From: Algibacter marinivivus
Lineage (GTDB): Bacteria > Bacteroidota > Bacteroidia > Flavobacteriales > Flavobacteriaceae
Assembly (NCBI RefSeq): GCF_003143755.1
Contig: NZ_QFRI01000002.1
Coordinates: forward strand, 419,953-483,952
Direction of reading: 5' to 3'
DNA length: 64,000 nucleotides
Part shown: positions 3,001-18,546 of the stretch, in pieces
Layout of the letters: each line of letters opens with the position of its first letter
Position numbering within the stretch: position 1 is the first letter of the stretch
Notes under the pieces: model-generated
What the model saw: only the letters and a program-made list of their open reading frames with translations
The model's database searches: none
What the model was told of the DNA's origin: nothing
Translations under genes and position numbers: made by a program

Positions 3001-3715
3001 CGCAGAAGTAAGTGTTGTAGAAAATGCACAAGCCTTAATTCAAGAAAAAATAGATAATGGCGAATTAGTAGTACCAAAAGGTATTAATTATCAATTCACA
3101 GGAACATACGAAAATCAGTTGCGAGCCGAAAAAACCTTGTCGGTTGTTGTGCCTTTAGCATTAGCAATTATTTTCTTAATTCTGTATTTCCAATTCCGTT
3201 CTGTAGGTACATCATTAATGGTATTTACAGGTATTGCAGTAGCATTTGCAGGCGGATTTCTAATGATATGGCTCTATGGTCAAGATTGGTTTTTAAACTT
3301 CAATTTCTTTGGCGAAAATCTACGTGATTTATTTCAGATGCATCCTATTAATTTAAGTGTTGCAGTTTGGGTGGGCTTTATTGCTCTTTTCGGAATTGCA
3401 ACGGATGATGGTGTAGTTATGGCAACGTATTTAACGCAAACTTTCAATAGAAACACACCAGATAATAAAAAGGAAGTAAGAACATCTGTTGTAGAAGCAG
3501 GAGAAAAACGTATCAGACCTTGCTTAATGACAACAGCTACAACCATATTAGCATTATTACCAGTATTAACATCAACAGGACGTGGTAGCGATATTATGAT
3601 TCCTATGGCAATACCAAGTTTTGGTGGAATGCTTATAGCCTTAATAACCTTATTTGTAGTACCAGTATTATATAGCTGGAAAGCCGAAGTTCAACTTAAA
3701 AGAACTGTAAAATGA
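8..3715 (+). CDS. cusA: CusA/CzcA-family heavy-metal RND efflux pump, inner-membrane subunit
   Basis: This is the proton-driven inner-membrane pump of a tripartite metal exporter, which would move Cu(I)/Ag(I) or divalent metal out through a TolC-like channel. The 1235-aa protein is longer than the roughly 1050 aa of classical CusA. It shows an N-terminal membrane helix (about residues 13-30), the helix-4 motif VDVGVILSEN near residue 430 with the proton-relay Asp, the porter motif FMPSLNEGSF near 667 and MLQTGMRAPMG near 836. Met residues around these motifs suit soft-metal transport, but I did not assign the Met triad. It is the first visible gene of an operon and overlaps the next gene by 4 bp. 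The promoter lies left of the window. Family is near certain; metal specificity is inferred from the HMA and Cys/His-rich neighbours. Confidence 0.95.
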   Translation: MLNKSIKFLIENKLVAVLLLVLFIGWGTVNAPFNWDTGFLPSNPVAVDAIPDIGENQQIVFTKWDGRSPQDIEDQITYPLTTSLLGIPGVKTIRSSSMFGFSSIYIIFEEDIEFYWSRSRILEKLNSLPSGLLPEGVNPALGPDATGLGQIFWYTLEGRDENGNVTGGWDLQELRSIQDYYVKYALSSASGVSEVASIGGYVQEYQVDVNPELMRQYNIGLHHVVKAVKESNKDIGAQTLEINQAEYLVRGLGYVKSISDIENAVVTSEDYTAIKIKDIGKVSLGPATRRGLLDKEGAEVVGAVVVARYGANPMEVINNVKEKINELSAGLPSKVLADGRTSQVTIVPFYDRTELIQETLGTLNEALTLEILITILVIIIMVFNLRASVLISGLLPVAVLMVFIAMKLFGVDANIVALSGIAIAIGTMVDVGVILSENIIRHLDEDDGTQSINTVVYNATAEVSGAIVTAVMTTIISFIPVFTMIGAEGKLFRPLAFTKTFALTASIIVALFLIPPFAAFLFRKKSINNTFKYVLNGVLIALGIVAIVYGYWLGLILIAFGITALLNLQSKITDKQANLINIIISVSAIVFLLAEYWRPLGIDKSIFWNLIFVSVICFGLLGVFSLFIKYYTRILKWCLDNKLLFLSVPTAIVIAGFFIMKNTGKEFMPSLNEGSFLLMPTSMPHSGVEENKRVLQQLDMAVASIPEIETVVGKAGRTESALDPAPLSMYENIIQYKPEYMLNENEERQRYKINEDGLFELKDGRFIANPNNTKDVTLSVIKNSQLIEDNDGEFYRNWRPEIQSPDDIWNEIVRVTKLPGVTSAPKLQPIETRLVMLQTGMRAPMGIKVKGQDLKQIEAFGVQLEDILKQAEGVKDEAVFADRIVGKPYLLIDIDREKIARYGISIQDVQDVLKVAVGGMVLTQTVEGRERYGVRVRYPRELRANPTDLKQIYVPVEKGSPVPLSELATIKYEQGPQVIKSEDTFLVGYVLFDKMDGFAEVSVVENAQALIQEKIDNGELVVPKGINYQFTGTYENQLRAEKTLSVVVPLALAIIFLILYFQFRSVGTSLMVFTGIAVAFAGGFLMIWLYGQDWFLNFNFFGENLRDLFQMHPINLSVAVWVGFIALFGIATDDGVVMATYLTQTFNRNTPDNKKEVRTSVVEAGEKRIRPCLMTTATTILALLPVLTSTGRGSDIMIPMAIPSFGGMLIALITLFVVPVLYSWKAEVQLKRTVK

Positions 3716-4947
3716 AACACATAAAATCACACATAAAAACAGTCTTTTTTCTTTGTTCGTTATTCTTTGTTCTCAAAGGAAATGCACAACAATTAGAAGT
3801 ACTCATAGATGAAGCCTTAACAAACAATCCAGAAATTCAAAAGTTTGAGTTACAATACAAAAGAGCTTCTGAAAAAGTGAATGAAGTCAATACCATTCCG
3901 AACACCGAATTTGGAGTTGGTTACTTTGTAAGTGAACCGGAAACCAGAACAGGTGCACAACGCTTTAAAGTATCTGCTAAACAAATGTTACCGTGGTTCG
4001 GAACCATTACATCGAGAGAAAATTATGTGAGTTCATTGGCAGATGCTAAATACGAGGACATTGTTATCGCAAAGCGAAAACTAATGGCTTCGGTATCACA
4101 ATCCTATTATAATCTATACGCGAACAAAGCAAAGCAAGAGGTCTTAACTGAAAACATTAAACTATTAGAAACTTATGAGACGTTGGCATTAACTTCTGTT
4201 GAGGTTGGTAAAGCATCCGCAGTAGATGTGTTGCGATTGCAAATGCGTCAAAACGAAATGCAACAATTAAAAGATGTATTGCAACAACAATTTTTAGCAG
4301 AACAAACCAAATTCAATAATCTATTGAATAGAGATAATGATGTTACCGTGAATGTGGTAGATAGTGTAATGATACCTTCTGAAGACTTTGATATTACTTC
4401 TGAAAATTTAGCATTACATCCTGAATTACTAAAATATGATAAGCTCTATCAATCCATAGAGCAATCAGAATTATTAAATCAAAAAGAAAGCAGTCCAATG
4501 ATTGGTTTTGGATTAGATTATATCAATGTTTCAGAAAGGCCAAATATGGATTTCAGCGATAACGGAAAGGATATTGTAATGCCAATGGTTTCGGTGTCAA
4601 TCCCAATTTTCAATAAGAAATATAAATCCCAAACCAAACAAAACGAGTTAGAACAGCAAGAAATAACAGTTCAAAAGCAGGAACGATTAAACACTTTGGA
4701 AACACTTTTAAGCAAGGCGATTAATGAGCGTATTTCTGCAAGAATAAGTTATACTACTCAAACTAAAAACCTAAAACAAGCAAAAGATGCAGAAGATATT
4801 TTAATCAAAAGCTATGAAACAGGAACGATTGATTTTAATGATGTTTTAGACATTCAAGAGTTACAGCTAAAGTTTCAAATGAACCAAATAGAATCTGTGA
4901 AGACCTACTTTGTACAAACTACTATAATTAATTATTTAACTAATTAA
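3712..4947 (+). CDS. TolC-family outer-membrane efflux protein
   Basis: This is the outer-membrane channel partner of the RND pump. The 411-aa protein has a signal peptide of about 25 residues ending near GNAQQ, followed by the two internally similar alpha-helical/barrel halves typical of the OEP family. These are rich in Gln, Glu and Leu heptads, for example around residues 150-200 and 300-400. The ATG overlaps the stop of the pump gene in an ATGA, so the two are translationally coupled. It is close to the usual length of CusC/TolC relatives in Bacteroidota. No lipobox Cys is seen, so it is probably not lipidated, unlike E. coli CusC. Confidence 0.92.
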   Translation: MKHIKSHIKTVFFLCSLFFVLKGNAQQLEVLIDEALTNNPEIQKFELQYKRASEKVNEVNTIPNTEFGVGYFVSEPETRTGAQRFKVSAKQMLPWFGTITSRENYVSSLADAKYEDIVIAKRKLMASVSQSYYNLYANKAKQEVLTENIKLLETYETLALTSVEVGKASAVDVLRLQMRQNEMQQLKDVLQQQFLAEQTKFNNLLNRDNDVTVNVVDSVMIPSEDFDITSENLALHPELLKYDKLYQSIEQSELLNQKESSPMIGFGLDYINVSERPNMDFSDNGKDIVMPMVSVSIPIFNKKYKSQTKQNELEQQEITVQKQERLNTLETLLSKAINERISARISYTTQTKNLKQAKDAEDILIKSYETGTIDFNDVLDIQELQLKFQMNQIESVKTYFVQTTIINYLTN

Positions 4948-4950
4948 ACT

Positions 4951-5676
4951 ATGAATAAATCAACATATATAATCGTATTGGTAATAATGGTAATTGCTTT
5001 TACCTCTTGCCAAAACACACACAAAAAAGAAGTCTCAATATTAGTAAAACATTCGGGAGCTTTAAGAACAATAATGTCTGGTAACATTCAACCCGTAATT
5101 AGTTTAGATACACTTTCAAAAAAGAAACATCTATATGCTCTTGGTGCTGTAGATAATCTCAAAGGTGAAATACAAATATTTGATAGTAAACCGAGCAACA
5201 GCTTTGTGATTGATAGTAGCTTGCAAATTAAAGATTCTTATAGTCTAAAAGCGTCTTTATTAGTATATGCTGAAGTGGAAGAATGGGATACTTTTCAAAT
5301 CGAGAATAGTAAGACAAAAAGTGATTTAGAAGAACAAATTTTTGAACTCGCCACAAATAGTGGAATCAATACTGAAGAACCATTTCCTTTCTTATTAGAA
5401 GGTATAATCGCCTCTGTGGATTGGCACGTCATAAATTGGAAAGATGGTGATACTATCCACAACCATAAAAAGCATAAGGAATCTGGTTTAAATGGAACTT
5501 TAGCAAATAGAAGAGTTCAAATTATAGGCTTCTATTCCACAAAGCATAAAGCAGTTTTCACTCATCATACTACCAATATGCATATGCATTTTAAAACTGA
5601 TGATAATGCTATTGCTGGTCATATTGATGATTTATCATTTAATCAAACAGTAACATTAAAGCTACCAAAAAAATGA
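4951..5676 (+). CDS. Acetolactate-decarboxylase-like lipoprotein in a metal-efflux operon
   Basis: A 241-aa exported lipoprotein with a signal ending FTSC (Cys20). The mature part follows the alpha-acetolactate decarboxylase (BudA) fold order: HLYALGAVDNLKGE (Glu73) matches the family's GLGTFNxLDGE block, and MHMHF plus GH (His211, His213, His224) matches the HLHF...GGH metal-ligand block. The Arg that helps catalysis in BudA, in the segment between those blocks, appears to be replaced by Trp/His (around VDWHVINW). It starts 3 bp after the TolC gene and overlaps the next gene by 4 bp. A lipidated, envelope-located BudA cannot easily serve acetoin synthesis, so I infer a metal-binding or repurposed role. 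Family assignment rests on motif recall, not a search. Confidence 0.72.
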   Translation: MNKSTYIIVLVIMVIAFTSCQNTHKKEVSILVKHSGALRTIMSGNIQPVISLDTLSKKKHLYALGAVDNLKGEIQIFDSKPSNSFVIDSSLQIKDSYSLKASLLVYAEVEEWDTFQIENSKTKSDLEEQIFELATNSGINTEEPFPFLLEGIIASVDWHVINWKDGDTIHNHKKHKESGLNGTLANRRVQIIGFYSTKHKAVFTHHTTNMHMHFKTDDNAIAGHIDDLSFNQTVTLKLPKK

Positions 5677-6404
5677 AACATATATATAAAATAAAAGGAA
5701 TGACCTGTGGCAGTTGTAAAGCATCTGTAGAAAACAGTTTAAGAGATATAGATGATGTTTCCGATGTCGAAGTTAATCTTGAAAATCAAGAAGCAACAAT
5801 AACTATGGATAAACATATTGATATTGTAGAACTTCAAAAGTCTTTAGCATCGAAATATACCATAACTCAAAAAGAAATAAAGAATGTTTTTACGTCTACG
5901 CAATCTTCAAGTTTTGAGATTGAAGAAGAAAAAAGCAAATTACAACAACTTAAACCACTATTACTCATCATCTTCTATATAGCGTCAGCAAGCGTATTGT
6001 TAAATTATAAAAATTGGAGTTGGAGCGAGTTTATGCTGGACTTTATGGGCTTATTCTACATCGTTTTTAGTTTTTTCAAGATGTTAGATTTAAAAGGTTT
6101 TCCAGAATCCTTTCGTATGTACGACCCTTTAGCTAAACGTGTTCCTTTTTATGGGAAAGTTTATCCATTTATTGAAACAGCTTTAGGACTGATGTTTTTA
6201 ATGCGGTTTGAAATTAATATAGCTTTAATAATTACACTAATAGTATTAGGGATAACAACAATTGGAGTAACAAAAACATTATTGGACAAAAAATCAATAC
6301 GATGTGCGTGTTTAGGTACTGCTTTAAAATTACCTATGACAGAAGCCACTTTTATTGAAAATGCTATTATGATTGTAATGGCGACATTAATGCTTATAAA
6401 TTAA
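5673..6404 (+). CDS. HMA metal-binding domain fused to MauE/DoxX-like membrane domain
   Basis: A 243-aa two-part protein. Residues 1-70 form a heavy-metal-associated (HMA) domain with the copper-binding loop GMTCGSCKAS (Cys12, Cys15). Residues about 90-243 form a four-helix membrane domain resembling MauE/DoxX redox-associated proteins, with a late CAC motif (Cys211, Cys213) in a loop before the last helix. The layout suggests a cytosolic or periplasmic metal-capture domain joined to a membrane thiol domain that may pass metal or electrons. The start overlaps the preceding stop by 4 bp. The exact function of this fusion is not known to me; operon position supports copper handling. Confidence 0.82.
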   Translation: MKHIYKIKGMTCGSCKASVENSLRDIDDVSDVEVNLENQEATITMDKHIDIVELQKSLASKYTITQKEIKNVFTSTQSSSFEIEEEKSKLQQLKPLLLIIFYIASASVLLNYKNWSWSEFMLDFMGLFYIVFSFFKMLDLKGFPESFRMYDPLAKRVPFYGKVYPFIETALGLMFLMRFEINIALIITLIVLGITTIGVTKTLLDKKSIRCACLGTALKLPMTEATFIENAIMIVMATLMLIN

Positions 6405-6410
6405 ATTGTT

Positions 6411-7118
6411 ATGGTAAATAGACATACGGCGTTAAAAATTAGAAAAACCCACAGGTATTTGGGTCTCTTTTTAGGGATTCAATTCCTGTTTTGGACTATT
6501 AGTGGTTTATACTTTAGTTGGACGAACATCGATGAAATACACGGAGACCAATTTAAAAACTTGGAGTATCAACCCAAAGCATTTAATAGTTTAATAAGTC
6601 CTTCAGAAATGGATGTTTCAAATGGAATAAAGACTATTGAATTAAGAGATATTGATAATGCACCGTACTATTGGATAAATAAAGAGCAATTGTATAATGC
6701 TTTAGATGGAATGCCAAAAAATAGTATTACGCAGGATGAGGCACTCTATATTGCCAAAAACCATATGAAAAGTGGTTTAGAGGTAGAATCTGTTGAGCAA
6801 ATTACTGAAACTGGAAAACACCACGAGTATCGAGAAAAACTACTACCTGCTTATGTTATCTCATATAAAACAGATGAAGCACTAAAAGCATACGTTTCTG
6901 TAAGCGACGGAAAATTTCAAACCGTAAGACATCGTTCTTGGCGTTGGTTTGATTTTCTTTGGATGACACATACTATGGACTATGAAGGCAGAGACAATTT
7001 TAATACCATTGTTTTGAGAGCATTTTCACTTTTAGGATTGATAACCGTTTTAAGTGGGTTTTTGTTGTGGTACACCTCGTCACCTTCAATTAAGAAATTA
7101 TTAAAACGAAAAAAATAA
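6411..7118 (+). CDS. PepSY-associated membrane protein
   Basis: A 235-aa protein with an N-terminal transmembrane helix (about residues 18-36, after RKTHRYLGLFLG), a soluble periplasmic middle and a second helix near residues 200-222 followed by a basic KKLLKRKK tail. The RKxHRYLG start and the paired helices fit the PepSY-associated TM family, often found with iron or copper uptake/efflux and reductase systems. The middle contains a PepSY-like stretch (ITQDEALYIAKNHM). It sits 6 bp after the HMA-MauE gene and 4 bp before the adaptor gene. A membrane reductase-accessory role is possible, but no haem or flavin motif is evident. Confidence 0.8.
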   Translation: MVNRHTALKIRKTHRYLGLFLGIQFLFWTISGLYFSWTNIDEIHGDQFKNLEYQPKAFNSLISPSEMDVSNGIKTIELRDIDNAPYYWINKEQLYNALDGMPKNSITQDEALYIAKNHMKSGLEVESVEQITETGKHHEYREKLLPAYVISYKTDEALKAYVSVSDGKFQTVRHRSWRWFDFLWMTHTMDYEGRDNFNTIVLRAFSLLGLITVLSGFLLWYTSSPSIKKLLKRKK

Positions 7119-7122
7119 AGAA

Positions 7123-8895
7123 ATGAAAAAATATATAGTTTATCTCGGAATATTAGCTGTAGGTCTACTTTTAGGGTGGATACTGTTTGGTGGCTCATCA
7201 AAAGAAGATACAGACCATAATCACGATGCAGTTACAGAAACCAATCAAATGTGGACCTGTTCAATGCATCCACAGATTATGCAACCAGCAGCAGGAGATT
7301 GCCCCATTTGTGGTATGGATTTAATTCCTGCAGAAAGCGGAAGTGATGGTTTATTAGCAGGCCAATTTAAGCTTACAGAAAACGCTATGGCTTTGGCTAA
7401 TATTCAAACAACTGTTGTCGGTAAAGGCAATGCAGAAGGCAATACCATTAAACTATCTGGTAAGATTGCCGAAAATGAAGAAGCCAATGCGGTACAGGTA
7501 AGTTACTTTTCAGGTAGAATTGAACATTTGAATGTGAGTTTTACAGGCGAAGAAGTTCATAAAGGTCAGTTATTAGCAACCATTTATTCGCCAGAACTCT
7601 ATGCAGCGCAACAAGAATTGATTACAGCAGCATCTTTAAAAGAATCACAACCAGCTTTATACAAAGCGGTTCGTAATAAATTGAAGTTATGGAAGCTCTC
7701 TGAAAATCAAATCAATCAGATTGAAGAAACCCAAAAAGTGAAAGAAAACTTTCCTGTGTATGCAACCGTTTCAGGAACAGTTACCGAAAAATTAGTAGAG
7801 CAAGGCGATTTCATAAAACAAGGTCAACCGTTATTGAAGATTGCCAATCTCAACACGGTTTGGGCAAATTTTGATGTCTATGAAAACCAGATAGAGTTAT
7901 TTAAAAAAGGTCAAGAAGTTTCTGTATCTACCAATGCAAATGCAAATAAGGTATTTAAAGGAAAAGTCGATTTCATAGACCCAATTTTGAACAGTAAAAC
8001 AAGAACAATAACCTTACGTGTAGTTCTAAATAATAAAGATGATGTATTTAAACCAGGAATGTTTGTGTCTGCAAATATTGATAGTGTTAAGAATGAAAAT
8101 AAAGAAATCTTATCGATTCCTGCATCTGCTGTGTTATGGACTGGAGAACGCTCTGTGGTTTACTTAAAAACAAATCCAGACCAAACCGTTTTTGAAATGC
8201 AAGAAGTAGTTTTAGGTAATCAAATAGGTAATGAATATGAAGTTTTAGAAGGTTTATTAGTTGGAAATGAAATAGTGACTAACGGAACATTTACGGTTGA
8301 TGCAGCAGCACAATTACAAGGCAAAAAGTCTATGATGAATAAAGATGGTGGCAAAGTAATGACTGGACACGAAGGTCATTTAGGTATGGATAACAATTCA
8401 CCCAACAAAGAAAGTGACCACACTAATATGAATGAGCGTTTGAAAGTATCAATGAAATTTCAAGAGCAGTTAAAAGCTGTTTTCAATGAGTATATCAATT
8501 TAAAAGATGCTTTAGTAAAAGAAGATTCAAAAAGTACTTCAGCAAACGCAACAACTTTATTAAATAAATTGAATAAAGTAGATATGAAATTGTTGTCAGA
8601 TAATAAGGCGCATAACCATTGGATGTCATTAGAAGGCGAAATAAAATCTTCTGCAACTTCAATTTCTGAAACGTCCGATATAAAATCACAAAGAGACCAT
8701 TTTAAACATTTATCATCACATCTAATCAATGCTGTACAACTATTTGGTGTCGATGAAAAGGTCTATGTAGAATTTTGCCCAATGGCAGATAACAACAATG
8801 GTGCATATTGGTTGAGTAAAGAAGAAAAAGTAATCAATCCATACTTTGGCGAAGCAATGCTAACCTGTGGTGAAGTAAAACAAGTAATAGAATAA
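7123..8895 (+). CDS. cusB: RND efflux periplasmic adaptor (CusB-like) with extra metal-binding domains
   Basis: This is the membrane-fusion subunit linking pump and channel. The 590-aa protein has an N-terminal anchor (residues 4-22), a His-rich linker, then a heavy-metal-binding domain with MWTCSMHP and CPICGM (Cys46, Met48, His49, Cys60, Cys63). The HlyD-type barrel-hairpin-lipoyl core spans about 80-405. After a His/Met-rich linker (about 408-430) there is a DUF3347-like domain ending in FCPMADNNNGAYWLS and NPYFGEAMLTCGEV (about 550-587), again with Cys and Met. At about 590 aa it is much longer than E. coli CusB (about 400 aa). It lies downstream of the pump rather than upstream, the reverse of cusCFBA. 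Confidence 0.93.
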   Translation: MKKYIVYLGILAVGLLLGWILFGGSSKEDTDHNHDAVTETNQMWTCSMHPQIMQPAAGDCPICGMDLIPAESGSDGLLAGQFKLTENAMALANIQTTVVGKGNAEGNTIKLSGKIAENEEANAVQVSYFSGRIEHLNVSFTGEEVHKGQLLATIYSPELYAAQQELITAASLKESQPALYKAVRNKLKLWKLSENQINQIEETQKVKENFPVYATVSGTVTEKLVEQGDFIKQGQPLLKIANLNTVWANFDVYENQIELFKKGQEVSVSTNANANKVFKGKVDFIDPILNSKTRTITLRVVLNNKDDVFKPGMFVSANIDSVKNENKEILSIPASAVLWTGERSVVYLKTNPDQTVFEMQEVVLGNQIGNEYEVLEGLLVGNEIVTNGTFTVDAAAQLQGKKSMMNKDGGKVMTGHEGHLGMDNNSPNKESDHTNMNERLKVSMKFQEQLKAVFNEYINLKDALVKEDSKSTSANATTLLNKLNKVDMKLLSDNKAHNHWMSLEGEIKSSATSISETSDIKSQRDHFKHLSSHLINAVQLFGVDEKVYVEFCPMADNNNGAYWLSKEEKVINPYFGEAMLTCGEVKQVIE

Positions 8896-8927
8896 TAAAT
8901 CAAGTAATAACAATTAAATTTTAAACA

Positions 8928-9368
8928 ATGAAGAAAGTAATTTTAAGTGTAGCTGTAATAGCAGCATTAGGTTTAACAAGTTGTAAAAACGAAACCAAAA
9001 AAGAAACAGAAACCACAACTACTGAAATGTCTAAAGATATGGCAATGACAGACCTGTCTTTTGGTGTAAGAGGAAATTGCGGAATGTGTAAAAGCACTAT
9101 CGAAAAAGCAGCTAACGGTGTTGAAGGTGTTGCAAGTGCTAATTGGGATGTCGATAAAAAGAAGATTGATGTGTCTTTTGATGATACAAAAACCGATGCA
9201 ATGGCAATCCATAAAGCAATCGCAGCTTCAGGTTATGATACCGAAAAAGTAGCTGGTGATGAAGAAGCATATGATGGTTTACCAGGTTGTTGTAAATACG
9301 ACCACGAAATGATGATGAATCAATCAGGTGAAACAAAAAGTGATGACCATTCAAATCACGACCATTAA
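8928..9368 (+). CDS. HMA-domain lipoprotein, putative periplasmic copper chaperone
   Basis: A 146-aa lipoprotein with signal and lipobox ending LTSC (Cys19), a Thr/Lys/Glu-rich linker, then an HMA domain carrying GNCGMCKST (Cys51, Cys54) and a C-terminal tail with GCCKYDHEMMM and DDHSNHDH. All these are soft-metal ligands, so I infer a membrane-tethered metal carrier that hands copper to the adaptor encoded just upstream. It lies 32 bp after the adaptor gene, the widest gap of the operon, and is followed at once by a terminator. Last gene of the operon. Confidence 0.88.
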   Translation: MKKVILSVAVIAALGLTSCKNETKKETETTTTEMSKDMAMTDLSFGVRGNCGMCKSTIEKAANGVEGVASANWDVDKKKIDVSFDDTKTDAMAIHKAIAASGYDTEKVAGDEEAYDGLPGCCKYDHEMMMNQSGETKSDDHSNHDH

Positions 9369-10145: not shown

Positions 10146-10895
10146 CTATGCTACTTCTACGATATTTAAAACGTTATATGCACCATTTTTAAGCGGATAC
10201 TGAATACCGTTAATCTCTTGGAAGAACTCTACCAATAAAACGAATATATCGTTTCCTGTGCCTGTTGGAACACCTGCAGGCGTTAGTGTTTGCGTTGCAG
10301 ACGTTGAATCAATCGGAATATTCACAGTTGGACTGTATTCGATTGCGTTATCTGTAGTATCAAAGTCAACTTTTAGAAATGCTGAACTTAAACTTACGTG
10401 TGTTGCGCCACTTGGATATGCAATATCATTTGTAGGTGTTAAATTTGGGATAGTAATTTCACCTGTCGCACCATCTACAGTAAACGGAGCGAATAAAACA
10501 GCACTTAAAATGGCTCTATTGTTGAAATCCAAGCCTTTTAATGTGGCTTTACCTTCTGGTGTTGCTAATCCTGTAGCTACATTTCTTTGTCCTCTTACAG
10601 AGGTTGTATCAAAGTTTTTAATTTGTGTCATTTTTTGAGTAACACGACTTGAAACTCGATTGTCTTTTGCTCTAATCATTAAGTTTCTAACTGATGTTCT
10701 CAATAACTTACCAGATGATGCAGAACTTCCAAATTCTGAACCGTTTTCACGAGTACGTTCAAACGCTGGGTCATTTTGAATACGCTCTTTAGAAACACCG
10801 CCTTTAGTTTTTACTAAATAACCCTCTTTTGCTTTGTAAAAAGTTAGATTGTCTAACGTTCCTTCTAACTTAATAATACCTTTCAATTTTGCCAT
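10146..10895 (-). CDS. Conserved hypothetical protein of accessory regions
   Basis: A 249-aa protein without signal peptide or membrane helix. The N-terminal part is basic and carries a recognisable block, MAKLKGIIKLEGTLDNLTFY and later DPAFERTRENGSEFG. The C-terminal half is rich in Thr, Pro and small residues and looks like a beta-sandwich. I recall similar proteins, often in several copies, in Bacteroidota genomes, but no function is established to my knowledge. It stands alone between noncoding stretches. A TATATTTG element lies upstream on the same strand at 10924-10931. The start ATG follows at a normal distance. Confidence 0.8.
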   Translation of the reverse strand: MAKLKGIIKLEGTLDNLTFYKAKEGYLVKTKGGVSKERIQNDPAFERTRENGSEFGSSASSGKLLRTSVRNLMIRAKDNRVSSRVTQKMTQIKNFDTTSVRGQRNVATGLATPEGKATLKGLDFNNRAILSAVLFAPFTVDGATGEITIPNLTPTNDIAYPSGATHVSLSSAFLKVDFDTTDNAIEYSPTVNIPIDSTSATQTLTPAGVPTGTGNDIFVLLVEFFQEINGIQYPLKNGAYNVLNIVEVA

Positions 10896-11408: not shown

Positions 11409-11418
11409 TCCGCAAAAG

Positions 11419-11450
11419 AAACCCACAACAATTAGTTGTGGGTTTTTATT
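11419..11450. terminator. Strong bidirectional terminator
   Basis: An 11-bp stem (AAACCCACAAC with GTTGTGGGTTT) around AATTA, with a T run on the plus side and a T-rich stretch on the minus side. It can end the minus-strand redox operon whose last gene stops at 11473, and any plus-strand transcript from the 62-aa gene. Confidence 0.85.
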
Positions 11451-11472: not shown

Positions 11473-12693
11473 CTATTCCAATATTTTAGTATCAAATACA
11501 ACTTCACTTGCTACTGTTTTATGTACGGGACATTTTGAAGCTATTTCTTTTAAGCGTTTTTTCTGTTTATCATCAAGATTACCTATAAACTTTAATCGCT
11601 TTGAGATATGATCCAGATAACCTGGTTTTTCAACATCAAGCATTAATTCATCACTATGTTTACGGGCATGAGATATATATACATAAACTTCCTGTAAATC
11701 CCACTCTTTTCGTTCAGCATATAACTTTAAAGTCATGGCTGTACATGTTGCAATAGCCGCATTAAGATATTCATAAGGTGAAGGTCCAAAATCATCGCCT
11801 CCAACACTTGCAGGCTCATCTCCTATAAAGGAGTGGTTTTTAGTTTGGAGTTGTGTAGTGAAATTATTTTCTACTAAATCCAAATGAGCAACTAATTGCT
11901 CTCCTTCTGTATTTATCATATCGTTTTCTAACTGTGGAAAATATAATTTTGCCCATTCTCCTATCATTTTTCCAGCATATTCACTGTATTTAGAATTCAT
12001 CAGTAAATGATCTGCATCATGCAAACTCACAAAACTCTTTGGATGTATAGCATTATGATATAATTCTTGCGCATTTTCAATTCCAACAATATTATCAAAT
12101 GGTGCATGCATTATCAAAAGTGGTTTACGCAAATTTTTTGTGATAGATGGTAAATCGGTTTTACCAAAATCATTCACAAACTCTTGATTAACTTTAAAAG
12201 GTCTACCTCCAATATTTATCTCAACTTCACCTTTATGAGCTACTTCATCTATAGCATGAGAAAAATGATGGGTTACATGATCTACAGTTGCAGGTGCTCC
12301 AATGGTTGCAACAGCTTTTATATTATCTAATTTAGAAGCAGCAACAATTACTGCAGCACCTCCTAAAGAATGCCCTACTAGCAAACTAGGAGCTTTATAA
12401 TGTTGTTCGATGTAATCATTAACTGCTAATAAATCTTCAACATTAGCAGAAAAATAACTCTCAGCAAATTCGCCTTCACTCCTACCTAAACCTGTAAAGT
12501 CAAATCTAATAACACCAAAACCATGAGACGTTAAAGATCTTGATATATTCTTAGTTGCATTTAAATTACTACTGCATGAAAAACAATGCGCAAAAATAGC
12601 ATAGTAATTAGGTTTTTGATTTGCTGGCAATTCTAAATAGGCAGCTAATGAATACCCTTTTATATTTTTAATTTCTATTCTTTTAGTCTTCAT
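11473..12693 (-). CDS. Alpha/beta hydrolase-OsmC fusion protein
   Basis: A 406-aa protein with two enzymes joined. Residues about 1-255 are an alpha/beta hydrolase with nucleophile elbow GHSLGG, an acid in HAPFDNIVG and a His in HDADHLL. Residues about 265-406 are an OsmC/Ohr-type thiol peroxidase domain with its two redox Cys in [12 protein letters not shown] and SKCPVHK. OsmC proteins reduce organic hydroperoxides. No signal peptide, so cytosolic. The fusion is a known architecture; its substrate is not established. It is the last gene of the ten-gene redox operon and its ATG overlaps the stop of the MsrA-like gene (ATGA). Confidence 0.92.
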
Positions 12694-13211
12694 GCCTTTT
12701 CAGTGTTTAGGTGTGCAATTTTATTATTAGTATAAGTAGAGAATTTTTTTAAAAGCAGCTTTAGCTTTGGGTTTATAAATGTTTTGCAAAATGGCTTTTG
12801 CGGATTCTTAAAGTAATAATTTGTGATGGCTTCTCTAGAAGGTTTAAATTCTGAATATGGAAGCACTTGTGTTATGAGTTTATTATTGAATTTTGACTGG
12901 TAACTTTCAAGTATATCTTTAGTTATTTCTTCATCCTCTTTTCTAAAAACATAAATAGCTGAACGGTATTTTTTTCTCATACTATGGGCAGATGTACTTT
13001 TATGAGTATGTAAATGAATTTCGATAAGGACATCTAACGGAATTAATCTTGCATCATAATCGATAATAACAGCTTCAGAAAACGTATTATTTTCTCCATC
13101 TGAGGCTATCCAACCTTGTTGCACATTTATAACACCATGCAAAGATTGAAAAACAGCTTCTGTACACCAATGACAACCACCACCAAAACCTATTCGTTGT
13201 AAACTATTCAC
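12690..13211 (-). CDS. Divergent MsrA-like protein (GCHWC active site)
   Basis: A 173-aa protein of the peptide-methionine (S)-S-oxide reductase family. The catalytic motif reads [12 protein letters not shown] (Cys13), with His14 where nearly all MsrA proteins have Phe. The Glu of the HAE motif is kept (FSEAV), and so is the Tyr of YRSA. The Asp of the usual HDPT block is Lys (HKST), and the Asp before YRS (usual GxDxGTQYRS) is missing. The Phe normally helps hold the substrate methyl group, so substrate preference may differ. The C-terminus has an extra basic tail. It lies 33 bp after the aldo/keto reductase gene and is coupled to the hydrolase-OsmC gene. Confidence 0.82.
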
Positions 13212-13244
13212 TTATTAATTTATAATTTAAGTCATGATTTACTA

Positions 13245-14204
13245 CTAATTCCAATTCAGCCTCTTTCTTTCTTTCCAATATAACATACTAGACACCCTAT
13301 ATGCTGTTAACTCTTTTATTTCTGCTTCTGTAAGAACAAATTGTTTAACCTTTAAATTAGATTGCAAGTGCAGACTATTATTAGCTCCACTTAAAACTAT
13401 AGCTTTTGGAAAAACATCAATACAATAACGCAGTGCAATGGCATCTGGTGCAACATTGTACTTTTCAACTAAATGCTGCATGTAATTATATAGCTTTCCA
13501 TATTCTGGAAAACTATTGTTTGGTAATAGCCTACCATTAGCTAAAGCTTCTTTGATTATAAAAGGGCCTGACAAACTTTGTAATTCATCTCTATATTTCG
13601 AGATACTTTGATCTAGAATATTATAAGTGCATTGGAATGATTGAAACAATTTTTCATTTTCAATTTCAACAGATAAACCTTTTTCAAGCACCTCTATTTG
13701 ATTATCACCAGTTGTTGTTAAACCAATAGTAATATTGTTTTCTTTTTTTAATTCATGCAACCGATTTAAAACATCAATATTATCAAGTACACCTGTATCT
13801 AATGTCGCTGAATGAATTTGATACACTTTTAAAAAAGGTAATAAATTTTTCGAATATTCCCACTGTTCATTCAGCTTTTCTATTGAATGCTCTTTGACTT
13901 CATGTTGTTTTGCATGAGGGTCAAAATTTGCAACATAAGTATATCCCCATTTTGTTGAAACCTGAATACTAGAATCATTTTTTGTCTTTAGCCAGTTTAC
14001 TAAAAGCTGTTCTGCAATTCCATATCCAGGCGATGTGTCAAAATACCTAACACCATTATTATAAGCTTCTTCTAATACTTTTAGACCTTTTTGTTTAAAC
14101 TTAAACAAAGAGAATTGTTCAGTATCTATTTCCTTCTTAATATTAATATATAATGGCCTACCTATGGCTGCAGTACCTAACCCTATGTTATGTTTATTAT
14201 TCAA
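13245..14204 (-). CDS. Aldo/keto reductase
   Basis: A 319-aa NAD(P)H-dependent oxidoreductase of the TIM-barrel AKR superfamily. The catalytic tetrad is visible: Asp in DTSPGYG, Tyr in the same segment, Lys in VSTKWGY and His in QIHSATLD. The N-terminal NIGLGTAAIGRP is the usual first strand. No signal peptide. It lies between two MsrA-type genes, so it may supply carbonyl detoxification under the same oxidative stress. Substrate cannot be told from sequence. Confidence 0.88.
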   Translation of the reverse strand: MNNKHNIGLGTAAIGRPLYINIKKEIDTEQFSLFKFKQKGLKVLEEAYNNGVRYFDTSPGYGIAEQLLVNWLKTKNDSSIQVSTKWGYTYVANFDPHAKQHEVKEHSIEKLNEQWEYSKNLLPFLKVYQIHSATLDTGVLDNIDVLNRLHELKKENNITIGLTTTGDNQIEVLEKGLSVEIENEKLFQSFQCTYNILDQSISKYRDELQSLSGPFIIKEALANGRLLPNNSFPEYGKLYNYMQHLVEKYNVAPDAIALRYCIDVFPKAIVLSGANNSLHLQSNLKVKQFVLTEAEIKELTAYRVSSMLYWKERKRLNWN

Positions 14205-14217
14205 ATATTAAACTGAT

Positions 14218-14724
14218 TTAAACTTCTTCTTTTATAAAACTTTCATCAAATCTTAAAAAATGGCATGTGTAACCATTAGGATTTTTTACTAAATAATCTT
14301 GATGATAATCTTCAGCTTGCCAAAATGTAGTATATGGTTCAAGGGTTGTAACAACTTTTCCTTGCCATTTACCAGAAGCATCAACTAAATCAATCATTTC
14401 CTTAGCTATTGCTTTTTCTTCATCATTTTGATAAAAAATAGCAGAACGATAACTAGATCCTCTATCATTTCCTTGTTGATCAACTGTTGTTGGATTATGC
14501 ATTCTGAAAAAATAATCTAAAATTTCCTTGAAAGAGGTTTCGTTTGGATTATAAGTCAATTCAATACCTTCAGCATGTCCTGGATGGTTTTTATATGTTG
14601 GATTATCATTTTCTCCACCTTGATATCCAACTTCTGTATCTTTAATTCCTGGACGGGTTCTAAATAAATCTTCCATTCCCCAAAAGCAGCCTCCTGCTAT
14701 ATAAGCCTTTTTGTAATTAATCAT
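14218..14724 (-). CDS. msrA: Peptide-methionine (S)-S-oxide reductase MsrA
   Basis: A 168-aa cytosolic MsrA that reduces the S epimer of methionine sulfoxide in proteins and free Met. The active site is [13 protein letters not shown] (Cys13), and the substrate motifs [20 protein letters not shown] and YRSAIFY are present. It has one catalytic Cys and no GCFWC resolving Cys next to it; Cys in GYTCHF near the C-terminus is a candidate resolving residue. The start is the ATG just after the 85-aa gene stop (gap 3 bp). It is one of three MsrA-type genes in the operon. Confidence 0.94.
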
Positions 14725-14727
14725 ATT

Positions 14728-14985
14728 TCAATCTATAATTTTATAATTCTTAAAAAAATCTAATACTTTTTCCTTCCGCATTTCGCAAGGTTTTAATAAC
14801 TCGTTTTTAGACGTAATATAGTAGTTCAAGCTTACAAAGTCCTTTCCTTTCAACTCTTCAGCATAAACCTTAAAACTTTTACCATTATTAAAATCTGTTC
14901 TAGTTACTCCATATTTTTTGTTTTTATAACTTACTTCTGAGTAACCTACTGGCAATTGTTTTATTTTACCTAATATACTCATCAT
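14728..14985 (-). CDS. Conserved hypothetical protein of the Msr operon
   Basis: An 85-aa soluble, basic protein of mixed alpha/beta pattern: GYSEVSYKNKKYGVTRTDF, then a KVYAEEL/DFVSLNYYI strand pair and a final helix. It has a single Cys (KPCEMRKEK). The ATGATGA start overlaps the selO stop by 4 bp, and msrA follows 3 bp later, so it is tightly coupled to both. I recall similar small proteins beside Msr genes in Flavobacteria, sometimes called Msr by position only, but it has no MsrA or MsrB motif. Function unknown. Confidence 0.78.
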   Translation of the reverse strand: MMSILGKIKQLPVGYSEVSYKNKKYGVTRTDFNNGKSFKVYAEELKGKDFVSLNYYITSKNELLKPCEMRKEKVLDFFKNYKIID

Positions 14986-16544
14986 GAACTACAAGATAAC
15001 ATTGAGCACCCAATTTTATGTCTTGCCCAATCAGGTCGTTTAGCAAACCATTTTTGATATTCGGGTTGTTCATCATAAGGTGTTTTGAGCATTATAAACA
15101 ACTCATCTATCAACTTATAATCTCCTTTATCTGCATCATCAATAGCTAGTTGAGCCATGTAATTACGCAATACATATTTAGGATTAAATTGATTCATTTT
15201 TACTTTTCTCTCCTTATCAGAACCTATTTCTTTTTTTAACCTTTGAGCATATTTTTCAAACCAATCATTCCAACGATTTTCAATATTACCAACGACTTCT
15301 TCGGGCTTGTAAAATGCATTTTGAATGATTTCAATACCGTTTGAAGTATTATCTTTTTTGAAATCTGCCAAACTTCTAAAAAAAATTGTCATATCAGTTT
15401 CAGTTAAATGCAAATTATCTTCAAGTTCTTGAATAAATTTTTGATCGTTTGCATCTTCAGTTTCTAATCCTAATTTGGAACGCATCATACTTAAAGAACC
15501 ACCTTCAAAGTCTATTTTATACTGATTTAGAATAGTTTCTAAAGGCTCTGCTTCTTCAATTAACGGATATATGGCGTTTGCTAGTTGCAGCAAATTCCAT
15601 AAACCAATATTTGGTTGATTTCCATAACGATAACGTTTATTTTGTCTATCGGTAGTATTTGGCGTCCAACCATACTCATAACCTTCTAACCAACCATAAG
15701 GCCCATAATCTATTGTCAAACCTAGAATTGACATATTATCGGTATTCATAACACCATGAACAAAACCTACCCGTTGCCAATCAATAATCATATTAACTGT
15801 GCGTTGTGAAACTTCTTTAAAAAAAGCTATATACGTTTCTTTTGAAGGATTTCCTAAATGAGCAAAATGATATTTAATTGTATAATCTACCAACTTTTTC
15901 AAGTTCTTATCATCTTGTCTTGCAGCAAAAATTTGATAGTTCCCAAAGCGTAAAAATGATTCAGCTGCTCTACATACAATTGCTCCTTTTTCATAAGCAG
16001 GATTGCCATCATACATAACATCACGCATTACTAAATCCCCAGACAAAGCTAATGACAATGCTCTTGTCGTAGGTACACCCAAATAAAACATGGCTTCGCT
16101 ACACAAATACTCTCTAATAGATGAGCGTAATACAGCTAATCCATCAGCAGTTCTGGAATATGGTGTTTCGCCTGCGCCTTTTAATTGTAAGGTCCAATTT
16201 TTGTTATGATGTTCTACTTCACACAAATTAATAGCACGCCCATCTCCTAATTGACCTGCCCAATTTCCAAATTGATGCCCGCCGTAACACATAGCATACG
16301 GTTTTGTGTTCTCAAGAACTTCATTTCCTGTAAATACATTTAAAAACGTTTCACTTTTTGCATCTTCTTTTGATAAACCTAAATTTTCTAACATTTCAGG
16401 AGATATATGCAATAACTCTGGTTTTGCGGTTTGTTTAGGCGTTACATATGAAAAACATGCTTCTGACACTTGTCTTCTGGAATTTTCCAGAATTGAGTCT
16501 GCAGGTAATTCTTGATTAAATTTATCTTTTATATTAAGTTTCAT
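14982..16544 (-). CDS. selO: Protein adenylyltransferase SelO (YdiU)
   Basis: A 520-aa pseudokinase-fold enzyme that moves AMP from ATP to protein Ser/Thr/Tyr residues, a redox-linked modification. Family blocks are clear: YGGHQFGNWAGQLGDGRA, LKGAGETPYSRTADG, LRSSIREYL, HGVMNTDNMS and DYGPYGW. The last residues, GCSMLSCSS, have Cys513 and Cys518; Cys518 sits where animal SelO has selenocysteine. In known SelO a C-terminal disulfide controls activity. The start overlaps the glutaredoxin-like gene by 4 bp and the end overlaps the 85-aa gene by 4 bp. Confidence 0.95.
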   Translation of the reverse strand: MKLNIKDKFNQELPADSILENSRRQVSEACFSYVTPKQTAKPELLHISPEMLENLGLSKEDAKSETFLNVFTGNEVLENTKPYAMCYGGHQFGNWAGQLGDGRAINLCEVEHHNKNWTLQLKGAGETPYSRTADGLAVLRSSIREYLCSEAMFYLGVPTTRALSLALSGDLVMRDVMYDGNPAYEKGAIVCRAAESFLRFGNYQIFAARQDDKNLKKLVDYTIKYHFAHLGNPSKETYIAFFKEVSQRTVNMIIDWQRVGFVHGVMNTDNMSILGLTIDYGPYGWLEGYEYGWTPNTTDRQNKRYRYGNQPNIGLWNLLQLANAIYPLIEEAEPLETILNQYKIDFEGGSLSMMRSKLGLETEDANDQKFIQELEDNLHLTETDMTIFFRSLADFKKDNTSNGIEIIQNAFYKPEEVVGNIENRWNDWFEKYAQRLKKEIGSDKERKVKMNQFNPKYVLRNYMAQLAIDDADKGDYKLIDELFIMLKTPYDEQPEYQKWFAKRPDWARHKIGCSMLSCSS

Positions 16545-16789
16545 ATCAATTTTTCAATCCACTTTTTCAAATCTGCATCAGATGGATTTCGTAATTTCTT
16601 ATCTCCAATCATAATCGTTGGAAAGTTAAGCTTTCTGTTTTCATATAAGTTCCTTAATGCCTCTGCATTTGCTTCATTTAATTCAACATCTAGAAACTCA
16701 TAATTCAAATTTAATTTTTCTAAATGTTTTTTATAATACTGACTTTTATGACACCTTTCGGCGCCATAAAGTTTAATTTTTATTGACAT
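16541..16789 (-). CDS. Monothiol glutaredoxin-like protein
   Basis: An 82-aa thioredoxin-fold protein without signal peptide. The active site is ERCHKSQ (Cys13), so the CPYC pair is reduced to a single Cys. The cis-Pro segment NFPTIMIG and the final helix of glutaredoxins are present. Its stop overlaps the selO start by 4 bp. Such adjacency is notable because E. coli SelO is known to AMPylate glutaredoxin. Whether this protein is a thiol reductant, an Fe-S carrier or a SelO target is inference. Confidence 0.85.
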   Translation of the reverse strand: MSIKIKLYGAERCHKSQYYKKHLEKLNLNYEFLDVELNEANAEALRNLYENRKLNFPTIMIGDKKLRNPSDADLKKWIEKLI

Positions 16790-16792
16790 AGC

Positions 16793-17281
16793 TTACATGG
16801 TTTTAAGAACTTCTATAGCTGTATCTGGATTCAAATGAAAATCTGAAAACACTACATTATCATGTTTATCAATAAACAAGAACCAAGGTGTTCCTCCAGT
16901 TTGGTAATTCTTCATGACATTTGAAATTGATACACCATCATCTCCTGCATCATGACCAAAAGGAATCTTTAAATCATATTGCTTTTGAGTTTCAAAAATC
17001 TTCTCAAAAGTATTTTCATGATGCCCTTCAAAAACTGTTTGAATTGCTAAAAACACAACATTTTTATTGTCTTGTAAAGCTTCTACCATTTTCTTTAAAT
17101 CTGGTAAACCTTTACTATGGCAACCAGGGCACCAACTTTGAAAACAATACACAACTTTAAATTTACCTTTAAAATCTGTAAGTTTTAAAGGTTCAGCTTT
17201 ATTTCCATTGGTATCAATCCAGCATTTTACTTTAAATTCTGGAGCTTGAAATACATGTTTATCTTCTAATTTATTAGACAT
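16793..17281 (-). CDS. TlpA-like cytosolic redoxin
   Basis: A 162-aa thioredoxin-fold protein with active site WCPGC (Cys51, Cys54) and cis-Pro in GGTPWF. Unlike typical TlpA/ResA it has no signal peptide or anchor, so it likely acts in the cytosol. CPGC is unusual beside thioredoxin CGPC. Also of note are the extra Cys20 and Cys46. Its place next to msrA, msrB and the glutaredoxin gene suggests it reduces Msr enzymes or oxidised partners. It lies 3 bp before the glutaredoxin-like gene. Confidence 0.85.
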   Translation of the reverse strand: MSNKLEDKHVFQAPEFKVKCWIDTNGNKAEPLKLTDFKGKFKVVYCFQSWCPGCHSKGLPDLKKMVEALQDNKNVVFLAIQTVFEGHHENTFEKIFETQKQYDLKIPFGHDAGDDGVSISNVMKNYQTGGTPWFLFIDKHDNVVFSDFHLNPDTAIEVLKTM

Positions 17282-17310
17282 ACTATTGTCCCTTTCTTTT
17301 AATTTATATA

Positions 17311-17337
17311 CTTACAAGGTTTTGAAAATCTTGTAAG
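17311..17337. repeat. Intercistronic hairpin in the redox operon
   Basis: CTTACAAG and CTTGTAAG form a perfect 8-bp stem with an 11-nt loop in the widest gap (64 bp) of the operon, between msrA and the redoxin gene. No T run follows, so it is more likely an mRNA stability or processing element than a terminator. On the coding strand an AAAGGGA ribosome-site-like motif follows it. Confidence 0.55.
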
Positions 17338-17345
17338 TAAGGTGT

Positions 17346-17885
17346 TTATTTCAATTTATCAGCATGAAGCTTTCTTAATTTTGATAATTTTGGCGTAATT
17401 ACAAAACTGCAATAGCCTTGTTCTTGATTATTTCTATAATAATCTTGATGCTCTTTTTCAGCTTCATAAAAAATATCTAAAGGGGATATTTCTGTAACTA
17501 TTGCGGCTTCATAATACGGCGACACTTCTTTTACCACAATTTTAGCAATTTCGTTTTGAGCCTCATCATGATAATAAATTACCGAACGGTACTGTGTACC
17601 TATATCTCCTCCTTGTTTATTCAGTGTTGTAGGATCGTGAGTGGTCATAAAAATGACTAAAATATCTTCATAAGAAATAATATTAGTATCAAACTCAATT
17701 TGAATAACTTCGGCATGTCCAGTTAATCCAGAGCATATTTCACGATAGGTTGGATGCCCTGGAACATTACCTCCTGAGTATCCTGATACTACTTTTTCTA
17801 CACCTTTTATTTCTTGAAATATTGCTTCAGTACACCAAAAACATCCACCACCAAATGTGGCTAATTGCAAGTTTTTATTGCTCAT
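17346..17885 (-). CDS. msrA: Peptide-methionine (S)-S-oxide reductase MsrA
   Basis: A 179-aa canonical MsrA: active site GGGCFWCTEAIF (Cys15, with Cys18 next to it), GYSGGNVPGHPTY, GHAEVIQIEFD, HDPTTLNKQGGDIGTQYRS. It differs from the other canonical copy (14.2 kb) by the GCFWC motif and by a C-terminal KLRKLHADKLK extension. Its start overlaps the msrB stop by 11 bp, so MsrB and MsrA are made from the same message. A fragment AAAGGGAT lies just before the ATG. Confidence 0.95.
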   Translation of the reverse strand: MSNKNLQLATFGGGCFWCTEAIFQEIKGVEKVVSGYSGGNVPGHPTYREICSGLTGHAEVIQIEFDTNIISYEDILVIFMTTHDPTTLNKQGGDIGTQYRSVIYYHDEAQNEIAKIVVKEVSPYYEAAIVTEISPLDIFYEAEKEHQDYYRNNQEQGYCSFVITPKLSKLRKLHADKLK

Positions 17886-18336
17886 TAATTATCCCTTTCT
17901 CTAACTGCATAGATTCTGAATTAATACAATATCGCAATCCACTAGGTTCTGGTCCATCAGGAAACACGTGTCCTAAATGAGCATCACAAGTATTACACAT
18001 AACCTCTACCCTAACCATACCAAATGCTGTGTCTCGCTCATATTTAATGGCGTTTTCTTTAATAGGTTGTGTAAAACTAGGCCAGCCTGTACCGGATTCA
18101 AACTTAATAGTAGAATCAAACAACGATGTATTACAACACACACAGTTATATTTACCAGCTTCGTGAATACTACAAAGTGCTCCACTATGAGGTCGTTCCG
18201 TACCTTTTAATCTTGTTATTCGAAATTGTTCTGGAGTTAACTGAGATTGCCATTCGGTTTCAGTTTTTTCAACTCGCTTGTCTGGAGTTGGATTTCCTTT
18301 TACGGAAAAGTTGATAACTTTTTTCCAAGTAAGCAT
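17875..18336 (-). CDS. msrB: Peptide-methionine (R)-S-oxide reductase MsrB
   Basis: A 153-aa cytosolic MsrB, first gene of the redox operon. The catalytic Cys is in GLRYCINS (Cys137). A four-Cys zinc site is visible as CVCC and CNTCDAH, and the family blocks SGTGWPSF and HLGHVFPDGP are intact. A second Cys for resolving (Cys55, GALCSIH) is plausible. Upstream a TATCTTTA sequence at 18384-18391 on the minus strand is a 7/8 match to TAnnTTTG, and GAAAGGA sits before the ATG. Confidence 0.95.
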   Translation of the reverse strand: MLTWKKVINFSVKGNPTPDKRVEKTETEWQSQLTPEQFRITRLKGTERPHSGALCSIHEAGKYNCVCCNTSLFDSTIKFESGTGWPSFTQPIKENAIKYERDTAFGMVRVEVMCNTCDAHLGHVFPDGPEPSGLRYCINSESMQLEKGIINEQ

Positions 18337-18383: not shown

Positions 18384-18391
18384 TAAAGATA
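18384..18391 (-). promoter_or_regulatory. Possible -7 element for the redox operon
   Basis: On the minus strand TATCTTTA, a 7/8 match to TAnnTTTG, 48 bp upstream of msrB, the first gene. It is the only good candidate upstream of the operon, but the -33 half is unclear. Confidence 0.35.
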
Positions 18392-18514
18392 GTCGAAAAT
18401 TTATTCAAAAGCTTACAGTTTTAATATTTATAACCGTTATTGAATGCTACGGAAAGAAATAAAACAATTTATACATATTTTATTGTTCTTATATGCTAAA
18501 AATCCATTAAAAAG

Positions 18515-18546
18515 AAAAAGCCTGATGAAAATTCATCAGGCTTTTT
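18515..18546. terminator. Bidirectional terminator after the tRNA pair
   Basis: AAAAAGCCTGATGAAAATTC-type stem with its inverted half ending in a run of T on both strands. It follows the minus-strand tRNA-Ser/tRNA-Pro unit; the tRNA CCA end is 2 bp away. Confidence 0.85.

Follow-up and report, generated by a model that had tools for sequence, protein, structure and literature searches.

Do ten neighbouring genes of Algibacter marinivivus, all on the minus strand at positions 11473-18336 of a 64,000-nucleotide stretch of contig NZ_QFRI01000002.1 (the window), form one repair system, or do they only share a neighbourhood? We favour the first answer. The block is probably a single operon driven by an extracytoplasmic function (ECF) sigma factor, serving to reverse, in the cytosol, the oxidation of methionine and cysteine that follows strong oxidant stress, with the AMPylase-family pseudokinase SelO as regulator and an 85-residue protein, P85, as redox partner. 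An earlier note, made from the letters of the window alone, had placed the ten genes and assigned their families. A check of the open reading frames (ORFs) found all ten as placed, with gaps of 3-64 bp and overlaps of 4-11 bp as the note had described, and its family assignments agree with Pfam and NCBIfam, the 85-residue protein having no match.

Layout and promoter footprint of the block

The features are given below in the direction of transcription, with database matches and their values in brackets.

18515..18546, minus: terminator-like hairpin after tRNA-Pro, the upstream border
18390..18416, minus: putative ECF-type promoter footprint, GTAAG-N16-CGACTA (window pattern), its end 53 bp 5' of the msrB start
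17875..18336, minus: MsrB, predicted methionine-R-sulfoxide reductase (SelR 6.7e-49; TIGR00357 175.4 bits, cut-off 113.05)
17346..17885, minus: MsrA1, GCFWC type (PMSR 1.1e-60; TIGR00401 181.8 bits, cut-off 108.1)
17309..17339: 14-bp inverted repeat (loop of 3 nt), between msrA1 and the redoxin gene in the one long gap (64 bp)
16793..17281, minus: Rdx, TlpA/redoxin-like protein, CPGC (AhpC/TSA-redoxin type 5.1e-12; 3eyt 3.5e-18)
16541..16789, minus: glutaredoxin-like protein, monothiol, CHKS (glutaredoxin 3.9e-6)
14982..16544, minus: SelO/YdiU AMPylase-family pseudokinase, C-terminal GCSMLSCSS (SelO 3.8e-125; 6eac 1.8e-97)
14728..14985, minus: P85, 85 residues, family without a name, LKPCEM with an invariant Cys
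14218..14724, minus: MsrA2, GCFWG type (1e-57; TIGR00401 176.3 bits)
13245..14204, minus: aldo/keto reductase (3.4e-22)
12690..13211, minus: MsrA3, divergent MsrA-like subfamily, GGGCHWCTE ... KYRSA (4.1e-23)
11473..12693, minus: alpha/beta hydrolase-OsmC fusion (2.5e-16 and 2.1e-15)
11417..11447: terminator-like hairpin, T-flanked, the downstream border (listed on the plus strand by the scan; by eye the minus strand is T-rich too)

From msrB to the hydrolase-OsmC gene the successive junctions are an overlap of 11 bp, gaps of 64 and 3 bp, two overlaps of 4 bp, gaps of 3, 13 and 33 bp, and a final overlap of 4 bp. This spacing, the bounding hairpins and the conserved footprint 5' of msrB all fit the single transcript that the earlier note had proposed. 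None of the ten proteins has a signal peptide by eye, and two tRNAs are the only structured RNAs found in the region with Rfam. The inverted repeat in the 64-bp gap could possibly split or tune the transcript, as a processing or attenuation site. As a genome-wide repeat it was rejected: it occurs in three places at up to three mismatches, and the exact copy lies in the window only.

Among the 77 upstream regions of msrB, 22 contain the pattern GTAA-N17-CGWCTA, and all 22 matches share one spacing, though 15-20 was permitted; in 300 shuffles the count averaged 0.08 and never exceeded 2. CGWCTA by itself is present in 36 of the 77, compared with 2.2 in shuffles. A larger set of 80 regions also holds it in 36; here the aligned majority is TTGTAAG-N16-CGACTA at fixed spacing, in 33 cases the footprint lies 30-57 bp 5' of the start codon, and the 36 regions cover at least 24 of the 75 genera sampled for SelO (hand count). 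The shape of the footprint suggests a promoter of the ECF-sigma type. Two other promoter types were tried and rejected. The sequence TTG ... TAnnTTTG, which we take to be the standard Bacteroidetes consensus, was found 5' of msrB in none of the 77 regions (0.49 in shuffles), and sigma-70-like sites numbered 38, with 38.1 in shuffles. Elsewhere in the host genome (L213:1044-1852) there is, by reading, an ECF sigma gene followed by a small cysteine-rich ORF; one match to the promoter pattern inside this sigma gene is probably due to chance.

SelO clusters and their partner proteins

A search of 397 genomes of the host's taxonomic family, the Flavobacteriaceae (237 genera), found SelO in 125 genomes and 75 genera. 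One genome was hand-picked for each SelO-bearing genus, the first listed, which gave 75 loci (66 and 8 fetched, and the window); five are shorter than 19.9 kb (L130, L141, L145, L163 and L169). Each of the ten families was represented by a hidden Markov model trained on these same fetched loci, with matches below 50 bits discarded. SelO and an Msr gene share a same-strand cluster in 55 of the 75 genera. MsrB is present in 48 of the SelO clusters, MsrA1 in 43, MsrA3 and the hydrolase-OsmC fusion in 24 each and the aldo/keto reductase in 18; the redoxin (13), the glutaredoxin (12), MsrA2 (11) and P85 (8) are rarer. Across the 75 loci, 202 marker genes lie on the SelO strand and 1 on the opposite strand. 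The clustering therefore exceeds chance, and together with the conservation of the cluster this bias rules out a set of unrelated neighbours. Gene order varies among genera, so that selection for clustering seems likelier than inheritance of one block. The synteny that the earlier note proposed to look for extends well past close relatives within the Flavobacteriaceae, and subsets occur on proteobacterial plasmids too. The nearest named locus belongs to an uncultured Algibacter. As a small negative control, two 19.9-kb stretches of the host genome at the ends of the window hold 0 markers (one of them overlaps the first 9 kb of the window).

The same survey bears on a looser reading, in which the shared promoter reflects a common usefulness against oxidants, with neither a dedicated electron chain nor control of the glutaredoxin by SelO nor a P85 partnership. 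The composition of SelO clusters varies widely: as few as 1 or as many as 10 of the families are present, and the complete set is rare, being seen among the 75 loci in the window alone. Clusters can do without the glutaredoxin, the redoxin, P85 or the aldo/keto reductase, and ordinary thioredoxin could serve the Msr enzymes. However, tight glutaredoxin-SelO and SelO-P85 junctions recur, a glutaredoxin-P85 fusion exists, and the same subfamilies are found together again on proteobacterial plasmids. We regard this looser reading as rather unlikely, though it deserves to be kept in mind.

The SelO of the window passes the cut-offs of PF02696 (418.7 bits, cut-off 22.8) and NF000658 (565.9, cut-off 431) and misses those of two equivalog models (NF045949, 428.5 of 850; NF040880, 393.7 of 900). 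The motifs LKGAG, SSIRE, HGVMNTDN and D(Y/F)GP, which we take to be the catalytic motifs of SelO, are kept (113-row alignment; comparison with 6eac). The glutaredoxin passes PF00462 (27.4 bits of 22.9), and its predicted fold is that of a glutaredoxin/mycoredoxin (best Foldseek E 9.9e-5); the NCBIfam cut-offs for mycoredoxin and YruB-type proteins are missed (31.8 of 89.5 and 34.4 of 88.55). The CxxC dithiol motif is absent from the glutaredoxin, the 26 sequences reading CHKT (18), CHKS (7) and CHKC (1), and YY follows two residues after the motif in 25 of them. A profile (A2) made from P85- or SelO-keyed loci finds the CHK glutaredoxin in 19 of 199 genomes (E 1e-12). SelO is present in 12 of these 19 compared with 64 of the 199 overall (p = 0.004; 12/19 and 64/199 are hand counts), and the glutaredoxin gene directly adjoins SelO in 11 of the 12 genomes with both, the twelfth holding a degenerate copy about 0.7 kb off. 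In seven loci (L040, L055, L071, L075, L094, L108 and L187) the glutaredoxin carries a C-terminal GNAT-like domain; PF14542 was found in the glutaredoxins of L108 (the only one of the seven that was tested) and L208:11437-11973.

This arrangement also suits a switch centred on SelO, in which AMPylation of the adjacent CHK[ST] glutaredoxin under oxidation would redirect low-molecular-weight-thiol chemistry and the Msr genes would be passengers. Of the 31 glutaredoxin ORFs in the loci fetched, 14 either run into SelO or adjoin it without an intervening base, and the hydroxyl residues near the glutaredoxin Cys are conserved, as the CHKT, CHKS and YY counts show. In E. coli, according to the available excerpts of PMC12663964 and PMC12409994, SelO AMPylates GrxA at Tyr13 and inhibits it, which makes the operon-encoded glutaredoxin attractive as a substrate. 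Against the switch, 7 of the 19 glutaredoxin-positive genomes have no SelO, and the glutaredoxin is found in just 12 of the 75 SelO clusters. Moreover, with CPYC taken as the GrxA motif, the position of Tyr13 is occupied by lysine here, and any AMPylation of the window glutaredoxin would therefore need another site. A switch with the Msr genes as passengers appears quite improbable to us.

P85 is a new element of the cluster and belongs to no curated family. It has no match in Pfam or NCBIfam at E 0.001, and at E up to 10 two sub-threshold Pfam matches only. The P85 profile (31 homologues) contains 15 invariant positions, including E, LKPCEM, KV and F near the C-terminus. The Cys is kept in all of 85 aligned homologues but one truncated frame, with motif variants such as LRPCEM and LKPCVI, and it is kept in the plasmid homologues too. 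The AlphaFold2 model is a confident small alpha-beta fold (predicted local distance difference test score 94.5, predicted template modelling (TM) score 0.83), in which the Cys lies four residues before the C-terminal helix. No sequence of the Protein Data Bank matches it at E up to 10, and none of the fold matches is significant, the best being to Ivy. Two candidate identities were rejected: an Ivy lysozyme inhibitor (Foldseek 1xs0, E 0.24, probability 0.99, TM 0.60 by query; no signal peptide by eye) and a gene of phage origin (neither a phage match at E 0.01 nor a PHROG, and no viral fold match at E 0.001).

P85 is present in 43 of the 397 Flavobacteriaceae genomes, 3 of 10 in the genus, and at 48 named loci, which include a Saprospiraceae, two Alphaproteobacteria and a Sulfuricurvum. 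In the Flavobacteriaceae genomes it co-occurs with SelO (27 of 43, a hand count, compared with 98 of 354; p = 8e-6, kinship ignored). At 85 distinct loci, found via P85 or SelO and hence describing P85 neighbourhoods rather than a random draw, the cluster contains an Msr gene in 56 cases and SelO in 44, and a marker lies within 100 bp in 62. At L081 and L099 there is no P85 ORF, the P85 matches there holding an in-frame stop. One natural fusion joins P85 to a CYKS-type glutaredoxin domain within one ORF of 166 residues (L120:8737-9237, minus strand). P85 is thus a compact protein family that often stands beside oxidative-repair genes in the Flavobacteriaceae and on proteobacterial plasmids, which recommends it for initial work on function.

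MsrA3 passes the PMSR domain cut-off (82.8 bits, cut-off 23.7) and lies under the NCBIfam msrA cut-off (TIGR00401, 70.7 of 108.1). In a 59-row alignment it keeps what we take to be the catalytic Cys, Trp, Glu and Tyr positions (GGGCxW, SE, YRSA). The host genome (3.34 Mb, 11 contigs) encodes a fourth MsrA at another site, and the window itself encodes, at 35217-35699 (plus strand), another MsrB-like protein that by reading begins like a lipoprotein and is probably exported. With respect to the identity of the thiol, bshC and GSH-S_ATP domain proteins are both present. Ergothioneine genes were rejected as a general part of the system: EgtB is above its cut-off in 83 of 199 genomes and in none of the host's proteins. 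By coordinate reading EgtB lies within 3 kb of SelO in four genomes (G226, G411, G444 and G506). EgtB-like and, by reading, EgtD-like genes are found in or beside ten clusters (L034, L036, L039, L064, L087, L096, L107, L126, L156 and L181), seven of which also have DUF427; DUF427, and EgtB in Comamonas, are seen again in the plasmid islands.

Plasmid islands in Proteobacteria

Among 72,556 plasmids (PLSDB records), 185 records were matched by P85, 166 by the redoxin, 94 by SelO (some of these of chromosome size), 48 by the CHK glutaredoxin and 24 by MsrA3, with E-value limits that differ between the families. Eighteen regions, picked for diversity, were viewed: 12 via P85, 3 via the redoxin, 2 via the glutaredoxin and 1 via P85 plus redoxin. 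They include repeats, L196, L199, L200 and L203 being one island and L207 and L211 another. At least two of the ten families are present in 14 of the 18, and P85 alone in 4. The carriers are Alpha-, Beta- and Gammaproteobacteria, and the subfamilies shared with the window are the redoxin, the CHK[ST] glutaredoxin, MsrA3, SelO, the hydrolase-OsmC fusion and P85, at best identities of about 34-63% to the window proteins.

A Klebsiella IncC plasmid has the order msrA-redoxin-SelO-msrB. On a Comamonas plasmid the same four are followed by hydrolase/OsmC-DUF427-flavoprotein-sulfite-oxidase-like-FAD protein-EgtB, the hydrolase/OsmC protein being annotated as the same kind of fusion as that of the window. 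The Phaeobacter plasmid reads LysR-msrB-msrA-redoxin-SelO-flavoprotein-Grx/GNAT ... MsrA3, and that of Citrobacter msrB-CHKT glutaredoxin ... P85. Acinetobacter, Pseudomonas and Raoultella plasmids carry msrB-msrA ... redoxin (on the other strand) ... CPFC glutaredoxin (of the ordinary kind)-DUF427-P85, and a Sphingomonas plasmid grx-DUF427-argS-P85-Dps-MsrA3.

These islands raise the idea of a mobile module that crosses phyla, in which AMPylation by SelO would gate the flow of electrons from a dedicated CHK[ST] glutaredoxin and the CPGC redoxin to several Msr enzymes, P85 would be a novel type of single-cysteine redox adaptor, and the islands would be the horizontally spread form. We consider a module of this breadth unlikely. 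They also bear on the trigger, which may be hypochlorous acid (HOCl) rather than peroxide, the block then being a reactive-chlorine defence module. In both islands tested, L203 and L209, the DUF417 protein has RclC and the AraC protein RclR as best NCBIfam match, at 89-118 bits; DUF417 and AraC genes are annotated in the islands L196 and L210 as well, and RclR is HOCl-specific in E. coli (PMC7464077, in the excerpt available). All these matches are under the equivalog cut-offs (RclR 100.4 and 118.3 of 400; RclC 89.4 and 90.4 of 275), the L208 and L211 flavoproteins fall well short of that of RclA (286.7 and 294.6 of 740), Pfam and NCBIfam find no such gene in the window operon, and the known ECF analogue responds to reactive oxygen species (ROS) in the accessible part of PMC3420878. 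HOCl as the specific trigger is accordingly a doubtful reading.

Mercury or drug resistance genes lie beside the P85- or SelO-bearing plasmid regions L200, L201 and L207. Elsewhere in the window, positions 8-9368 (plus strand) hold, by reading, a heavy-metal resistance-nodulation-division efflux set with HMA-domain proteins, and a 249-residue protein with the start MAKLKGIIKLEGTLDNLTFYK is encoded at 10146-10895 (minus strand); a PHROG search with it gave no match.

Proposed mechanism and known systems

In the operon that we favour, MsrA1 and MsrA2 would reduce Met-S-sulfoxide and MsrB Met-R-sulfoxide. Electrons for these enzymes may come from the CPGC redoxin and the CHK[ST] glutaredoxin, which could alternatively clear thiol adducts. 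The OsmC domain would remove organic hydroperoxides and the aldo/keto reductase carbonyls. SelO is predicted to be a stress-controlled AMPylase that tunes one redox protein, most simply the neighbouring glutaredoxin, and P85 a small partner protein with one cysteine, acting alongside the glutaredoxin and the Msr enzymes. The analysis shows the gene content, the operon-like layout, its conservation, the footprint, one P85-glutaredoxin fusion and the subsets on plasmids, while the activities, the electron flow, the oxidant trigger, the sigma factor and the parts played by SelO and P85 are what we infer.

Several results weigh against this proposal. The promoter pattern has 14 matches in the host genome and 12 in the control, so no wider regulon is resolved. 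In 15 of the 75 genera no other marker accompanies SelO, and 15 of the 85 P85 loci have no marker. Among 395 genomes sampled from the phylum P85 was found in 2, both in the Flavobacteriaceae and the host included. The lysine at the Tyr13 position of the glutaredoxin belongs here too. The MsrA pattern is incomplete in MsrA3: most rows read HSMRxKYRS and GCHW, without the Asp of the GNDxGxxYRS loop and the Phe after the catalytic Cys (the roles of both being our assumption), and another sulfoxide may therefore be its substrate. In the 18 plasmid regions the redoxin gene is on the opposite strand to the other markers in 5 and P85 in 2, which makes these islands rather than operons, and P85 of rhizobial plasmids (L198, L204 and L205) is found among DNA polymerase Y, ligD, imuA or unrelated genes.

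The cellular role of SelO, a conserved AMPylase, is still poorly understood, and its operon mates (a specific glutaredoxin, a redoxin and four Msr-family proteins) offer a short list of candidate substrates.

No title or abstract opening found in the open-access literature describes the window operon or the plasmid islands as such. The statement of the earlier note that each family is known alone overlooks Dudkiewicz et al. (2012; PMC3281104), who had already reported msrB as significantly over-represented within 11 kb on either side of SELO in 265 genomes; going by the available excerpt, the SelO-msrB linkage has been known since then. The same excerpt gives msrA near SELO as an uncorrected trend only and two Bacteroidetes sequences in the representative set, and it contains no mention of the window operon, the CHK[ST] glutaredoxin, the redoxin, P85, MsrA3, the hydrolase-OsmC fusion or the promoter. 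The msrA and msrB genes are described in an integron of Acinetobacter plasmids (PMC8490738, excerpt). The plasmid islands from PLSDB share subfamilies with the window, whereas their order is another and they add DUF427, flavoprotein, sulfite-oxidase-like and DUF417/AraC genes.

The closest regulatory likeness is to EcfF (ECF group 16) of Bradyrhizobium japonicum, which in the accessible part of PMC3420878 is ROS-inducible and controls several msr genes from promoters of the form GTAAC-N14-15-(c,t)CG. The TTGTAAG-N16-CGACTA of the window resembles this GTAAC-N14-15-CG pattern but differs from it in having a -10 box CGACTA, and it would serve one ten-gene cluster. With E. coli SelO/YdiU and GrxA, the window shares a SelO with the family motifs and a glutaredoxin that is a possible substrate. 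It differs in that this glutaredoxin is a monothiol CHK[ST] protein, without the AMPylated Tyr, and is encoded beside SelO.

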